Shown here in pieces: positions 2,648 to 29,359 of a stretch of 64,000 nucleotides of DNA. The stretch is taken from contig JANQPO010000004.1 of assembly GCA_028289445.1 (NCBI GenBank), positions 310,001-374,000 on the forward strand, read 5' to 3'. Positions within the stretch are counted from its first letter, which is position 1; each line of letters starts with the position of its first letter. The stretch is from Tepidamorphaceae bacterium. GTDB lineage: Bacteria > Pseudomonadota > Alphaproteobacteria > Rhizobiales > JAKSCL01. The position numbers and the translations under genes are program-made. Under the pieces are notes generated by a model. It was not told the DNA's origin and made no database searches. It saw only the letters and a program-made list of their open reading frames with translations.

Positions 2648-5119
2648 TCACAAGGTCGCAACGAAGGCGATCAGCGCCTGCTTCTCGCGGTCGCTCAAGC
2701 CCTCGCCGAAACGGTGACCGGCGTTTTCGATGCGGTCGAGAACATTGGAGTAATAGCCCTGAACGAACTCGTCCCGGACCGTGAGCAGGGACTGATCGGT
2801 CGAGGCTTGAACGACATCGGTCTGACCCAGCGCCAGTTTCAAAACCGTCCGCCCGGCCATCTTCTCAAGACCTTCGCGAATCTCCAGAAGACCCGCACGT
2901 AGTTCGTCGCGGCGCTCCGGCGTCAGGTTTTCTGTGTATTTCGCATCGAACCGGTCGGGATCGGTCTTCACAAGGACCAGATCCTGGATCAGATCCTTGT
3001 AGCGCAGAGAATTGACCGAAACCGCCGGGAACCCTCTTGGGATCGTGATCGAAAGGCCCAGTTCCCGGTCGCCGATCTTGATGTCCGGCGCGACGTCTAT
3101 GATGAGATCGCGGTCGAGCAGGAACATTTTCGGCGTCCGAACTTCCGGATTAAGCAAAAGCTCCATCGAGGCCTTGTAAAGCTGGTAACGACCCTCGACG
3201 GAGGGATCGAACGCCCAGCAATTGGGTGGATCGGCGAGCGGTTGGCCGCCGTCGTCGACATAGGGCGAGCGATAGAAATCGACTGCGCGATCGCTTGGCT
3301 TGCCGCAGATTTCAGGGCCGATCGCGTTGTTGTGCATGAACGGCGCGTGCGCCCAGGTCGAAAGCAGCGAAATGTTGCGATAGTAGCCGCGCCCGGCGTT
3401 CGACATCACTTCCGGCCGGTTCGGGTCGTGCGCGCGCTCGTGCAGGTCGAGCGAGGCATATTGCTCCCAAACCCGTGTCTTCATGTGGTTGGAGTGAAGC
3501 GAGCGGGCACTGTAGGTGCCGATTTCCGTCGCCGGCGAGAGTTGGTCGTTGCCGAGCCAATCGAGCCTGAGCGTTGGATCATCCGGGTCGGTGGCGGTGA
3601 AGTCGACATTGTCGTAGGGCCCAGGCTGGCTCGAATGGCACCGGGCACAGGTCTGCGCGAACACCGCGCGGCCTTCTTCGACGGCACCGTCGAAGTATTC
3701 GTCGTCAAGGGCAACTTCCAGGTCGCGCGGGCTATCGAGGCCCCGCGCCTGCCACAAATCGGTCGGTCTTGCGGTCAGGAAGAAAGCCTTGATGTCGTCC
3801 AGCCGGTCCTCGATTGCCCGGAAACTGGCGCAGTCGCGGCGACAAATGCCGATGTCGAATGGCGTTTGGCCATAATTGCGCTGTGCCGGGTCGGCGGCGC
3901 GCAGGTCCGGGATATGGTTCATCCAGCACTGTTCGGCGCAAGAGCCGATGTTGAAATAGACGCGTTGGATCGCTTCGTTGAAGCCGATGGAATCCTCGCC
4001 GCCTTTCAGCACGAAGGGCACGTCCTCAACCTTCTCGGAGCGCTCCCAGCACTTACCGGCCTTGCCTGGCTCGCACCAGCAGGCATCCGGGTCGGCGTCG
4101 ACGGCGCACATCTCGGTCTTGCGCCATTTCAAGACCCGCTGCTCGAACACCGGCCGGCGGGCAAAATTGATGATGGCGTTCATCGTGCCTGGATTGGACA
4201 CAAGGTCCATCGGCAATGCGGAGGTGTCGACAATGCCGGGCCGGGCGCGGGCGACAAGCTGCCACTCAAGCCGGTGCTGCGACAGGCCCGATCCGAGCAT
4301 CTCGGAAATGCGGCTGTACTGATTGCCGACCAGGCCCTTGATGTTTTCCCAGGCCGGATTGTCCGGGTCAGCCGGCGGATTGAGCGGATCGTAGGCGATG
4401 TGACAGGCGCCACAGGCCATGCCGATGCGGAACGGCGGCTCCACCGAGCCATCCATGATCCTGTTCATGCGGCCATCGGGATCGTTCGGATCGGGCGACA
4501 GCATGTTGCGGTAGCCGTCCCAGGACGCCGGCGATCCGTTCAGTCGCGTCCAAGCATCGGCGTCGAAGCGGGGGTTCGGAAACTTCCGCAAGCCGAGTGC
4601 GCCGGTCGAGGTTCCAAAGTGCAGATCACAGGAATCCTGCCGTTGATCGACGTCGCCATGTGGCGTCGCCGTGTCGAACGGTCCGTCGACGAAGTCGCAG
4701 GCCGGGTCGCGATATCCTTCGCGGCCAACGAAGGCCAAAAGCTCGTCGTCGCCCGGACACCATTGAAACCCATAGGTCTCCTCAAGCGATTGAGCGGGGC
4801 AGTTTTCGTCGCCGGGCACGCAGCAGTCGGGATTGGGGATCGCGCCCCAGGCATTGAAGAGGTCACCCTTCTTCTCGGCGGCCAGCACCTTATACCAGTC
4901 GATCACCGCACCCAGGCGCTGCGGATAGGAATAGGTGAAGAAGCGGTCGTTGAAGGCCGTGGCGAACAGCCAGATTTCCCGGCCGGCTCGCTCCGATGGC
5001 GAGTAGATCGAATCGGTCGCGGCATAGTCTTCGCTCAACATGCTTTGCGCGCGCGCCGGCGATGCCGATCCAACAATGGACAGAAAAACAAAGACAAGAA
5101 TTATCGAAATCAGTCGCAT
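2648..5119 (-). CDS. Large exported di-haem c-type cytochrome (peroxidase/RoxA-like architecture, tentative)
   Basis: An 823-aa protein with a signal peptide (residues 1-25, cleavage after PARA) and two haem c sites, CGACH near residue 236 and CARCH near residue 491. It contains many additional cysteines, including CC near 99, CWCEPGKAGKCW near 347 and CAEQC near 394, which suggests a disulfide-rich periplasmic or secreted protein. Two haems 250 residues apart, and the phrase WAHAPFMHNN after the second haem, recall di-haem cytochrome c peroxidases and the larger RoxA-type dioxygenases. I have not been able to test either relation, and the protein is longer than both (peroxidases are about 350 aa, RoxA about 680). 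It is the first gene of a minus-strand unit with the 319-aa and 519-aa proteins. A candidate operator (GGCATG-CTAA-CATGCC) lies 114 bases upstream, between it and the LuxR-type regulator. Confidence 0.7.
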   Translation of the reverse strand: MRLISIILVFVFLSIVGSASPARAQSMLSEDYAATDSIYSPSERAGREIWLFATAFNDRFFTYSYPQRLGAVIDWYKVLAAEKKGDLFNAWGAIPNPDCCVPGDENCPAQSLEETYGFQWCPGDDELLAFVGREGYRDPACDFVDGPFDTATPHGDVDQRQDSCDLHFGTSTGALGLRKFPNPRFDADAWTRLNGSPASWDGYRNMLSPDPNDPDGRMNRIMDGSVEPPFRIGMACGACHIAYDPLNPPADPDNPAWENIKGLVGNQYSRISEMLGSGLSQHRLEWQLVARARPGIVDTSALPMDLVSNPGTMNAIINFARRPVFEQRVLKWRKTEMCAVDADPDACWCEPGKAGKCWERSEKVEDVPFVLKGGEDSIGFNEAIQRVYFNIGSCAEQCWMNHIPDLRAADPAQRNYGQTPFDIGICRRDCASFRAIEDRLDDIKAFFLTARPTDLWQARGLDSPRDLEVALDDEYFDGAVEEGRAVFAQTCARCHSSQPGPYDNVDFTATDPDDPTLRLDWLGNDQLSPATEIGTYSARSLHSNHMKTRVWEQYASLDLHERAHDPNRPEVMSNAGRGYYRNISLLSTWAHAPFMHNNAIGPEICGKPSDRAVDFYRSPYVDDGGQPLADPPNCWAFDPSVEGRYQLYKASMELLLNPEVRTPKMFLLDRDLIIDVAPDIKIGDRELGLSITIPRGFPAVSVNSLRYKDLIQDLVLVKTDPDRFDAKYTENLTPERRDELRAGLLEIREGLEKMAGRTVLKLALGQTDVVQASTDQSLLTVRDEFVQGYYSNVLDRIENAGHRFGEGLSDREKQALIAFVATL

Positions 5120-5334: not shown

Positions 5335-5841
5335 TCAGTGACCTGCGGGAATGAGGCTCTCTGCCATGAGGTCTTCGACGAAAAGGCTGAGCAGTTGCGT
5401 TCTGCCGTTCACGCCGGCCTTGCGGTAGATCGCGTTGCACTGCGCCTTAACTGTCCCCTCCTTTGTCTCCCGAACGCGTGCAATCTCGGCGACCGGCAAG
5501 CCCTTGATGGCCAGCAGCGCCACGTCGCGCTCGGCTTCGGTCAGGCTCCAGGTCTCGAAGTGTTCCCGCAGCAGGTCGGAAAACGCGCCCGATGCCGCCT
5601 TGATTTGATGCTCCATCCGCTGCTGACGGCGCAGGATTTTTCGGATTTCCAATCCGGTGAGCACGAGACCGAGGATCAGGGCGATCACGACCAGATATTC
5701 GAACAAATCCGTGTCCTTGACGCCAAGCGCTTGCTCCCAGCCCATCACGTCCGCGACCGCGTCCCCGAGGAAAAACAGGACGCAGAACGCCTGCAGCGTG
5801 AACAAGGCAAAAAGGCTGATATGGCGTCCAGGTTCGGTCAT
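5335..5841 (-). CDS. Membrane-tethered LuxR/GerE-type transcriptional regulator
   Basis: A 168-aa protein with two hydrophobic segments (about residues 8-28 and 46-66), a charged coiled linker (RKILRRQQRMEHQ), and a C-terminal LuxR-type helix-turn-helix around residues 98-158 (LTEAERDVALL, VAEIA, KEGTVKAQ, YRKAGV). There is no receiver domain, so it is not a classical response regulator. The layout suggests a one-component sensor that binds DNA while in the inner membrane. It lies directly upstream of the cytochrome cluster on the same strand and 84 bases downstream of the PepSY-like gene. Local control of these genes is inferred from position. Confidence 0.75.
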   Translation of the reverse strand: MTEPGRHISLFALFTLQAFCVLFFLGDAVADVMGWEQALGVKDTDLFEYLVVIALILGLVLTGLEIRKILRRQQRMEHQIKAASGAFSDLLREHFETWSLTEAERDVALLAIKGLPVAEIARVRETKEGTVKAQCNAIYRKAGVNGRTQLLSLFVEDLMAESLIPAGH

Positions 5842-25258: not shown

Positions 25259-26794
25259 CTAAGCAGCGGCAAGCGCGGCGTTCTGGAAGCGGAACCGATA
25301 GGCGAGCGCCTCGGCGACATGCGGACGGGCTATGGCCTCGGCGCCCGACAGATCGGCCAGCGTGCGCGACAGTCTGAGCACCCGGTGATAGCCGCGCGCG
25401 GAGAGCCGCAAGCGATCGGCAGCATCGCGCAGGAGCGCCAGGCCGGCGCCGTCGAGTGCCGCCACCTCGTCGAGCGCGGCAGGCGGGCAGGCGGCGTTGG
25501 TGCGCACGCCGGCAAGACCGAGCGCGGCATAGCGTTCGGCTTGGACCGCGCGGGCGGCGACTACCCGCTCGCGGACATCGGCGCTCGTTTCCGCGCCGGC
25601 CGGGGCCATCATGTCGACGGCCGACACCGGCGGGATGTCGACATGCATGTCGATGCGGTCGAGGAAGGGCCCCGACAACCGCGCCTGATAGCTTTCCGCG
25701 CAGCGCTCGCCCTGGCGGCAGGTGTGGCCCGGCTCCCCGGCGTAGCCGCATTTGCACGGGTTCATCGCGGCGACGAGCTGGAAGCGGGACGGGTAGGCGA
25801 CGCGAAAGTTCGCCCGCGCAATGACGGTTTCGCCGTTTTCGAGCGGCTGGCGCAGGGAATCGAGCACTTGCGGCGAGAATTCCGGCAACTCGTCGAGAAA
25901 GAGCACGCCGTTATGGGCGAGCGCCGCCTCGCCGGGAGTCGCCCTGGCGCCGCCGCCGACCATCGCCGCCATGGAGGCGGAATGGTGCGGCGCCCGGAAC
26001 GGCCGCACCTGGGTCAACGCGCCGCCGACCAGATCGCCGGCAACGCTCCTGATCATGGCCGTTTCAAGCATCTCCGCCGGTGTCATAGGCGGCAGGATCG
26101 AGGCAAGGCGCGACGCCAGCATGGATTTGCCGGCGCCCGGCGTGCCGACGAAAAGGAGGTTGTGACCGCCGGCCGCGGCGATTTCGAGCGCCCGCTTGCC
26201 GGCCTCCTGGCCCCTGATGTCGGCCAGATCGCCGATGGTCGCCGCACCGTCGCCAAGCGCCGGGCGCGGCTGGTCGAGCACCTGCCGGCCCTCGATATGA
26301 TTGATGAGCTGGCCGAGATCGCCGGGCGCGGTAATCGTAAGGTCTTCGCCGGCCCAGGCGGCCTCCGCACCGCAGCTTTTCGGGCACAACAGCGAGCGGC
26401 CCATGGCGTGCGCGGCCATCGCCGCCGGCAGCGCACCCGACACCGGCGCGATCGAGCCGTCGAGACCCAGTTCCCCGATGACAACGAATTCGTCCAAGAT
26501 GTCGGCCGGAATGGCGCCGGTCTCGGCCAGAAGGCCGACGGCGATCGGCAGGTCGAAATGGCTGCCGACCTTTTGCAGGTCGGCCGGGGCGAGGTTGACA
26601 GTGATGCGGCGGGCCGGAAGCGCCAGCCCGATGGCCGACAGCGCGGCGCGCACCCGTTCGCGGCTTTCGCCGACCGCCTTGTCCGGCAGGCCGACAATGG
26701 TGAAGGCCGGCAGGCCCGGCGCGATATGGACCTGAACGTCGATTGGCCGCGCCTCGACGCCCAAAAACGCGACACTCGCCACATGCGAGACCAT
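25259..26794 (-). CDS. comM: YifB/ComM family Mg-chelatase-like AAA ATPase
   Basis: A 511-aa ATPase with an N-terminal Lon-S5-like domain (MVSHVASVAFLGVEARPIDVQ), a central AAA domain with Walker A GTPGAGKSML and Walker B LFLDELPEF, a zinc-like cysteine segment (NPCKCGYAGEPGHTC), and a C-terminal chelatase domain (SARGYHRVLRLSRTLADL). ComM is a hexameric branch-migration helicase that assists integration of incoming DNA. A perfect alphaproteobacterial LexA-type box lies 49 bases upstream of its start, so DNA-damage induction is likely. Confidence 0.93.
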   Translation of the reverse strand: MVSHVASVAFLGVEARPIDVQVHIAPGLPAFTIVGLPDKAVGESRERVRAALSAIGLALPARRITVNLAPADLQKVGSHFDLPIAVGLLAETGAIPADILDEFVVIGELGLDGSIAPVSGALPAAMAAHAMGRSLLCPKSCGAEAAWAGEDLTITAPGDLGQLINHIEGRQVLDQPRPALGDGAATIGDLADIRGQEAGKRALEIAAAGGHNLLFVGTPGAGKSMLASRLASILPPMTPAEMLETAMIRSVAGDLVGGALTQVRPFRAPHHSASMAAMVGGGARATPGEAALAHNGVLFLDELPEFSPQVLDSLRQPLENGETVIARANFRVAYPSRFQLVAAMNPCKCGYAGEPGHTCRQGERCAESYQARLSGPFLDRIDMHVDIPPVSAVDMMAPAGAETSADVRERVVAARAVQAERYAALGLAGVRTNAACPPAALDEVAALDGAGLALLRDAADRLRLSARGYHRVLRLSRTLADLSGAEAIARPHVAEALAYRFRFQNAALAAA

Positions 26795-26842
26795 GGCTCA
26801 CCTCCCGTCAGGAGTGTAGCGTCAGGCGGTGAGCGACGTCAA

Positions 26843-26857
26843 GAACATTTAGTGAAC
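26843..26857 (-). promoter_or_regulatory. LexA-type box (GTTC-N7-GTTC) upstream of comM
   Basis: On the minus strand the sequence is GTTCACTAAATGTTC, an exact match to the alphaproteobacterial LexA consensus GTTC-N7-GTTC, with TTT before it and TT after it. It lies 49 bases before the comM start, a normal operator position. Confidence 0.65.
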
Positions 26858-26916: not shown

Positions 26917-26976
26917 TAATGGAAGCTAATGGAAGCTAATGGAAGCTAATGGAAGCTAATGGAGGGTAATGGAGCC
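26917..26976. repeat. Tandem 10-bp repeat, six units of TAATGGAAGC
   Basis: Four perfect copies of TAATGGAAGC are followed by TAATGGAGGG and TAATGGAGCC, without gaps. It lies in the 202-bp gap between comM and the AT-rich AAA ATPase, 21 bases past the stop codon of the latter. The period equals about one helical turn. The function is unknown; it could vary in number by slippage or be an array of binding sites. Confidence 0.85.
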
Positions 26977-26996: not shown

Positions 26997-28244
26997 CTAC
27001 ATGGCTCTTTCAGCATCCTTCTTGGAAGCAGCGGCTTTGATCGCGTTGATCCAAACCGCGAAAGACTTAGTTGGAAGCCGATAGAACCCTCGACGTGCTT
27101 CGTCCGAAATGACGATCTCTCTGTCGCGCAACGCCTTTAGAGCATTCGTGACACTCGTCTCAGATACACCCGACTCCTTGATAATTGTCTTTCGGGCCAC
27201 CCAGCCATCCCCGTGCTCAGCCATTGAGTCCAGCACCCTTCTGTAGTCTTCTGACGAAATTCTCGCGTTGTACATCTGGCTAAAGAATTTATCTCCGAGC
27301 TGAGAAAGTGCCCCATTCTCATCAAATGCACCGTATACGACGTCATCAAAATCAATTATCTCATCCGAATCATATTCGAATGCGCTATAAGCAAACTGCT
27401 GCACGAAATGCGGATACCCCTCTGAAAGCTCGGCTAGAAAATCCAATGCATCTTCTTCAACAGCAGTAACTTCAGAGTTTACGTTGTTGGCCTTCTCGAG
27501 CCCCAGGTTAACTACCTTCTTTCTTTCATTAAACTCCAAAGGCTCTAGTAGCATGATATGGAAGAGTCTCGGGGATGATTCGTGGCTCTCTCTGAGCTTT
27601 GCGAGAAGTGTTGGAAGGCCTGCAAGCCCGAAAAGAACATTATAGCAACGCTCACGCGCAAGCCTTTCGCAAGTAAACTTAATAATTCGACCAAGCTCGG
27701 CTTCTAACGGAGGTGCATCAGCTTCATCTATGAGTAACAGTATTCCATCTATCGATCCTGTAGATTGAAAAAGAAATTTGGATACCCTGCTGATAAACTC
27801 ATCCATTATCTCCTCAACATCTATATTTTCTATAGAAACAGGTTTATTATATTTAATACCCAAGATTTCCCAGTTGGTGATCCAATCCCAGAATTCACTT
27901 GCATTTTTCAACAGATCATCGTGTTTATTTAGTTCTAATCTCAATCCTCTTCCCAGGCTCTTAACAATATCAAGATTCGACCTGCAACCGCTGAAATCGA
28001 TAAAGACCGTAAGAAATTTAAACATTTGTTGATCTGGAGTGGCAAATTCACCGTTTGCTAAATCCTTTACATAATCGAGTAGCGACGTTTTGCCGATTCC
28101 ACGTTCGCCATGCACCAAAAAATGCAAAGGATTCCCATTCTTTGCTTGGAGCAGAGACTGTTCAATCGCATCCAGTTCCTTACCGCGACCGACGAACATA
28201 CCTGGGACGACGGGATTGTTGGGGCGGAATGGATTGAATCGCAT
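26997..28244 (-). CDS. AT-rich lone AAA/STAND-type ATPase with C-terminal winged helix
   Basis: A 415-aa ATP-binding protein. The N-terminus (MFVGRGKELDAIEQ) leads into Walker A GERGIGKTSLLD near residue 46; Walker B is ILLLIDEADAPPLE near residue 185; the C-terminal 100 residues contain a winged-helix unit (ARKTIIKESGVSETSVTNALKALRDREIV). This is the layout of ORC/Cdc6-like and STAND ATPases. Base composition is strikingly different from the neighbours (20 G+C of 60 bases at 27781-27840, against 40 of 60 at 25261-25320). It sits alone between comM and gshB, next to a tandem repeat, with no integrase nearby. I infer horizontal acquisition. The role is unknown; ATPases of this type occur in plasmid, phage-defence and regulatory systems. 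Confidence 0.8.
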   Translation of the reverse strand: MRFNPFRPNNPVVPGMFVGRGKELDAIEQSLLQAKNGNPLHFLVHGERGIGKTSLLDYVKDLANGEFATPDQQMFKFLTVFIDFSGCRSNLDIVKSLGRGLRLELNKHDDLLKNASEFWDWITNWEILGIKYNKPVSIENIDVEEIMDEFISRVSKFLFQSTGSIDGILLLIDEADAPPLEAELGRIIKFTCERLARERCYNVLFGLAGLPTLLAKLRESHESSPRLFHIMLLEPLEFNERKKVVNLGLEKANNVNSEVTAVEEDALDFLAELSEGYPHFVQQFAYSAFEYDSDEIIDFDDVVYGAFDENGALSQLGDKFFSQMYNARISSEDYRRVLDSMAEHGDGWVARKTIIKESGVSETSVTNALKALRDREIVISDEARRGFYRLPTKSFAVWINAIKAAASKKDAERAM

Positions 28245-28393: not shown

Positions 28394-29335
28394 TTACGAC
28401 TGCACCTCCACCGCGTCCCACACCAGCGCCGCGATATCGGCGCCGCCGAAGGCCTTCACCTCGCGGATGCCGGTCGGTGAGGTAACGTTGATCTCGGTCA
28501 GATAATCGCCGATCACGTCGATGCCGACGAAGATGAACCCGCGCGCCTTCAGGTCCGGGCCGATGCGCGCGCAAATCTCCCGCTCCCGGTCCGTTAGCTC
28601 CGTCGGCACGGGCTTCCCGCCAACATGCAAATTGGAGCGCGCCTCGCCCGGCGCCGGCAGGCGATTGATCGCGCCGACCGGCTCGCCGTCGACCAGGATG
28701 ATGCGCTTGTCGCCGGCCCGCACATCCGGCAGATAGCGCTGGATGACGAACGGCTCGCGAAAGTTCTCCTCGAACAGTTCGACCAGCGCCGCCAGGTTTT
28801 GATCGCCGGCCGACAACAGGAACACGCCGGCCCCGCCATTGCCGTAAAGCGGCTTGATGATGATGTCGCCATGGGCCTCGCGAAAGGCCAGGATTTCCGC
28901 CCGGTCGCGGGTGATCAGCGTCGGCGGCATGAGGTCCGGATAATCGCACACAAAGAGCTTTTCCGGCGCGTTGCGCACCTCTTTCGGGTCATTGACAACA
29001 AGCGTCTTCGGGTGCACCCGCTCCAGCAGATGAGTGGCGGAGATGTAGCTCATGTCGAAGGGCGGGTCCTGGCGCATCAGGACCACATCGAAATCGGCGA
29101 GCGAGCGCCGCTCCGCCGCGCCAAGCTCCACATGGCGCCCAACCTCGTCACGCAGCACCTCAACAGGCCGACCGTTCGCAGAAACTACCCCGTCCGACAT
29201 CGCAAGCGCGTTCGGCTGATAGACGAATAGCGCATGGCCGCGCGCCTGCGCCTCCAGCATCAGCGCGAAGGTCGAGTCGCCCTTGATATCGATGGTCTCG
29301 ATCGGGTCCATCTGGACCGCTACGGTGAGCGCCAC
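28394..29335 (-). CDS. gshB: Glutathione synthetase
   Basis: A 313-aa ATP-grasp ligase joining gamma-glutamylcysteine and glycine. The family N-terminus [19 protein letters not shown] is clear, as are [14 protein letters not shown], the ATP-grasp lysine region [16 protein letters not shown], and the C-terminal [13 protein letters not shown]. The GTG at 29335 is preferred over the TTG at 29353 since a GAGGGG is seven bases upstream and the resulting [11 protein letters not shown] matches the family. It is the last gene of the rsmI-yraN-gshB unit. Confidence 0.95.
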
Positions 29336-29359
29336 GCGGCATCCCCTCTTCAAACAACG

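Follow-up and report, generated by a model that had tools for sequence, protein, structure and literature searches.

Defence systems, BREX among them, repeatedly contain ATPases of the ORC/Cdc6 clade (PMC12839542). The ATPase described here is encoded by a lone gene in a 64-kb window (the whole stretch of DNA that was analysed) and, like BrxC and BrxD of BREX (PF10923), it contains an ORC/Cdc6-type AAA+ ATPase, with a winged helix-turn-helix placed after the ATPase as in BrxC; the PF10923 match is weak (E = 0.021, 14.2 bits vs. a cut-off of 22.2). Unlike the BREX proteins, it has core genes and no BREX genes as neighbours, and it is 415 aa long as against 1200–1300 aa for BrxC. Foldseek ranks archaeal Orc1/Cdc6 proteins (PDB 1fnn, 2qby, and 1w5t) first, with matches that span most of the chain, and they have in common with it the AAA+ core, the helical additions, and the C-terminal winged helix. 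However, identity to these proteins is 14%, and the window ATPase is bacterial, mobile, and unlinked to replication genes; against the orc1/cdc6 model TIGR02928 it scored 20.9 bits and did not pass the cut-off of 181.3. The AAA_16/ATPase_2/STAND NTPases (PF13191, PF01637, nSTAND, and NACHT) resemble it in that it passes AAA_16 and carries a GxP-like motif, and one proviral relative passes the NACHT cut-off. In contrast to STAND NTPases, the window ATPase has neither sensor repeats nor an N-terminal effector domain. No significant match was found in PADLOC-DB 2.0.0 (best E = 0.0076, domain-level only) or over the ATPase in NCBIfam, where the matches were weak and at domain level, and literature searches returned no published description of the family.

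The ATPase gene and its predicted fold

The sequence-only reading had described an AT-rich, lone AAA/STAND ATPase gene with a winged helix, standing between core genes. The ORF was confirmed at exactly the position given, 26997–28244 on the minus strand, and is intact, with an ATG start, 415 codons, and zero internal stops. Its G+C content is 44.7%, whereas windows of equal size from the rest of the 64 kb average 62.8% (sd 1.9; z = −9.5), its GC3 is 0.45 vs. 0.73–0.84 in the neighbouring genes, and its codon score falls far outside the range of those genes, so that the gene is indeed AT-rich. The claim that it has about half the G+C of its flanks holds for the most AT-rich stretch (30% at 27820–27939, with flanks of 62–72%) but not for the whole gene, which reaches about 70% of the flanking value. 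The description as lone was also correct: no integrase, tRNA, or partner adjoins the gene, no phage genes lie in its surroundings, and no partner gene was found in the window. Along the contig, no tyrosine recombinase was found closer than about 232 kb. A tRNA-linked or integrase-linked insertion was considered and rejected, since the 64-kb window contains no tRNA and no integrase is nearby.

The protein passes the Pfam AAA_16 gathering score (48.7 vs. 32.6 bits, E = 1.6e-12) and has no more specific Pfam match. The Walker motifs are intact, as had been stated. Within Walker A (GERGIGKT, residues 46–53; 28086–28109, minus strand), G46, R48, G49, G51, and K52 are invariant across the subfamily of the ATPase and its sister subfamily (alignment A4), as are D173 and E174 of Walker B (ILLLIDE, residues 168–174; 27723–27743, minus strand). 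R226 (27567–27569, minus strand), just before the model strand 228–233, is invariant in 12/12 sequences of the two subfamilies and is a candidate arginine finger. The motif EGYPHFVQ (residues 275–282; 27399–27422, minus strand) occupies a STAND-like GxP position; SEGYPHF is invariant within the subfamily and Y-P-x-F-x-Q across both.

An AlphaFold model (pLDDT 80.7), built on a shallow alignment of 8 rows, consists of an AAA+ core, a helical bundle, and a winged helix. In the core, where proteins of the ORC/Cdc6-STAND type would have a helix-extension-helix insert following strand 2, helices 90–105, 109–114, 116–127, and 143–160 lie between strand 77–83 and the Walker B strand 167–173, but pLDDT is <50 at 127–137. 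Helices over residues 238–327 are followed by the winged-helix region at 332–390 (27075–27251, minus strand; helices 332–342, 351–358, and 362–374, and strand 387–389), with low confidence at 318–329. Weak MarR_2/TrmB profile matches at the C-terminus, below the Pfam cut-off, agree with the model in supporting the winged helix of the earlier description. The best PDB matches in Foldseek are the archaeal Cdc6/Orc1 initiators, with E values of 3e-10 to 3e-9 and TM-scores of only about 0.5, suggesting that the ATPase belongs broadly to the STAND/ORC-Cdc6 group of AAA+ proteins. Thus, the AAA+ part of the earlier label stands, while the STAND part is refined, the modelled fold being closest to Orc1/Cdc6 within this wider assemblage. 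A viral fold search gave only generic AAA+ matches, a PDB sequence search found no solved homologue, and no effector domain was seen in the protein.

Proviral relatives and a sister family

Among 101 relatives searched, matches were limited to 24–33% identity, partly over short stretches. The closest homologue, 56% identical, came from the class sample and belongs to an alphaproteobacterial MAG of another order (G325), in which it is likewise an AT-rich single gene between core genes, DUF484 and mnmH (L018). The congener G222 carries an unrelated ORF at the DUF484–mnmH site, and DNA homology ends at the DUF484 stop codon; the two congeners (L021/L086) hold different single genes there. Viral contigs yielded one homologue of 52% identity and five of 35–38%, two of which (L024 and L025) are near-identical; these were found with a two-row alignment query, in a collection of viral sequences, which by design displays phage contexts, and a single-protein query against the same contigs gave no match. 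Among sequenced phages, the sole match was to an archaeal virus (23–26%), whose protein carries the annotation putative ORC1/Cdc6. When 399 genomes of the phylum were searched with a profile (E ≤ 1e-30), the window copy alone was recovered, indicating that the subfamily is rare.

Seven members make up the subfamily: five in proviruses, one in the MAG of another order, and the window copy. The proviral sample is small and close homologues are few. The phylogeny and taxonomic spread that the earlier reading had proposed to check place the window copy with the MAG and the provirus L022 (support 97/88), within a seven-member subfamily (100/100) that stands apart from the sister family. The proviral members are under purifying selection, with 10 synonymous vs. 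3 nonsynonymous changes between L024 and L025 and a dN of 0.086, with dS saturated, between L023 and L026.

Across the neighbour loci that were read, ORFs were called mechanically and several product names were assigned by eye from sequence. In the proviruses, the ATPase has integrase/DUF4224 on one side and a cI-like S24 repressor on the other (L023), adjoins the integrase (L024/L025), or follows an HTH repressor-like gene (L022). Prophage sites between repressor and integrase have been described as antiviral hotspots (PMC9122126). The proviral members lie beside lysogeny genes, a frequent location of prophage cargo, defence genes included, which speaks for a possible defence gene. DUF6864 and a small membrane protein precede the ATPase in L024/L025 only, and were therefore rejected as a constant partner. 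An AT-rich trypsin-like protease at L026:3066–4043, beside the proviral ATPase, matches the defence-associated models RT-Protease (9e-17) and PDC-M35A.

The fold match to Cdc6/Orc1, together with the weak TIGR02928 match and the annotation of the archaeal virus homologue, could also suit an Orc1/Cdc6-like replication initiator of a phage or plasmid. However, in L024/L025 the replication genes (a DnaB-like helicase and an HTH protein, named by eye) are 3–5 kb away in a module of their own, whereas the ATPase sits by the integrase, and the chromosomal copies are isolated. Moreover, a conserved GYP motif stands at the position of the sensor-2 motif of ORC proteins. We regard an initiator as decidedly improbable.

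The sister family, here called NPFAPGAG, consists of a lone 'ATP-binding protein' of about 393 aa (alignment A3). It has in common with the subfamily an N-terminal NPFxP...GR signature, Walker A and B, R226, and YPxFxQ, but is about 21–23% identical to it, forms a separate well-supported clade, and occurs on chromosomes and plasmids rather than in proviruses. One copy per genome is present in 19/298 genomes of the order. Most of the chromosomal copies whose neighbourhoods were read stand alone, with unrelated core genes on both sides and no integrase. Plasmid copies lack a constant partner, and in two of the six plasmid loci read an integrase or recombinase lies no more than a few kb away. One chromosomal copy (G422) directly follows lepA, and a 142-bp direct repeat of the lepA 3' end, with 2 mismatches, lies on either side of it (L082:2349–2490 and 3806–3947); no integrase was found in its 9.9-kb contig. 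This repeat suggests integration at a gene end; either a site-specific recombinase supplied in trans or the single crossover of a circle may have brought it about. Another sister-family ATPase (G078) has, about 3 kb away at L078:12170–15041, a candidate defence system of two genes that match PADLOC PDC-M68A/B (B, 8e-119).

The gshB–comM site

The gene lies between comM/yifB (25259–26794, minus strand; synteny in relatives by tblastn) and gshB (28394–29353, minus strand; present in 59/61 relatives), in a region whose usual gene order in the host's order is rsmI-yraN-gshB-comM. The statement that these core neighbours normally lie together is borne out: in 10 of the 16 relatives with both genes readable the gshB–comM gap is 96–229 bp, and it is larger in the other 6. 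None of the 16 has the ATPase gene in the gap.

An alphaproteobacterial LexA-type box, GTTC-N7-GTTC, is found by pattern match upstream of comM at 26843–26857 (minus strand), and the same pattern precedes comM in 14/16 relatives, mostly 70–100 bp from the comM start. A consensus scan placed a promoter-like site, TTGACG-18-TACACT, at 26813–26842 (minus strand); its position fits, yet the region holds no more such sites than expected by chance. Because the box is intact, the insertion lies upstream of the comM operator and promoter-like site, and it has left the comM promoter region and the conserved LexA box undisturbed.

Just downstream of the ATPase gene is a tandem array of TAATGGAAGC (26917–26973; 5.7 copies, TRF score 100), and the flank with this array occurs once in the genome. 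Neither ATPase flank recurs elsewhere in the genome, and no direct or inverted repeats above chance level flank the gene within 600 bp; recognisable insertion ends at the window copy were therefore rejected. In the only other genome of the same family (G001), the gshB–comM gap is occupied by a different, unrelated AT-rich ORF of 155 aa, indicating that the site accepts different cargo. On either side of this ORF lies a 53-bp repeat of the gshB 3' end, with 4 mismatches (L084:4899–4951 and 5577–5629), and the ORF has a weak PADLOC PDC-S01 match (E = 1.7e-4).

Vertical inheritance at this position throughout the order, which the sequence-only reading had named as the outcome that would refute it, was looked for and not found: no relative has the gene in the gap, and the closest kin are proviral or belong to another order. 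Together with the composition, this absence and this kinship mark a foreign lone gene, and the ATPase gene was acquired horizontally. An ordinary host gene, such as a regulator associated with gshB or comM that was lost in most relatives, might be expected from the site beside gshB, as a distant member of the wider family also lies beside gshB, between yraN and gshB, in a genome from another family of the order (G049; L010/L074). However, that member is very diverged, AT-rich (44%), and from a different branch, the tree does not follow taxonomy, and the window gene combines a strong compositional mismatch with closest relatives that belong to proviruses and to another order. A host gene is thus largely contradicted already, and very improbable.

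Possible roles of the ATPase

We give an even chance to the reading that the window gene is a phage- or plasmid-derived accessory gene, captured alone in the gshB–comM site and serving its carrying element as a single-gene switch against mobile DNA. The gene would have come from a phage or plasmid and been captured singly into the intergenic site. The ATPase would bind DNA through its winged helix and may cycle or oligomerise with ATP by means of Walker A/B and the putative arginine finger. It would then act as a single-gene switch on incoming or competing mobile DNA, in superinfection exclusion or defence, and would serve the carrying element rather than host core physiology. Judged from the genomic context, the ATPase most likely acts against competing mobile elements. 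For the defence, plasmid-stability, or regulatory module suggested from sequence alone, the searches gave no significant PADLOC or NCBIfam match over the protein, and the members have no effector domain or partner in common.

The main rival is a regulator or its stranded remnant. Under this explanation, the ATPase would be a regulatory protein of a prophage or plasmid, a MalT-like or repressor-like switch working for the carrying element, and the chromosomal copy would be left behind with little or no present function. The winged helix, the repressor-like gene preceding the L022 copy, and a single copy without a partner in surroundings without any phage gene all agree with such a regulator, but lone intact ORFs away from any element, in the window, in L018, and at many sister-family sites, are unexpected without a regulon. 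We consider this explanation possible, though doubtful.

A broader proposal, which we think rather unlikely, extends the action against mobile DNA to both sister families, which would form a class, so far undescribed, of ATPases that each act as a single gene against mobile elements: ORC/Cdc6-like winged-helix switches without a separate effector, spread as bare genes between core genes, at least one of them, after lepA in G422, flanked by a long copy of its neighbour's 3' end.

The gene defines a small, mostly proviral subfamily of ATPases for which the libraries searched hold no specific curated model, and connects it with a wider family whose lone ATPase genes are scattered on plasmids and, in Alphaproteobacteria, among core genes. 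Should the defence reading be false, the window gene would be a clear case of cargo left stranded by a prophage in a chromosome; if it is true, the ATPase would be a minimal one-gene system of a kind missed by island-based searches.
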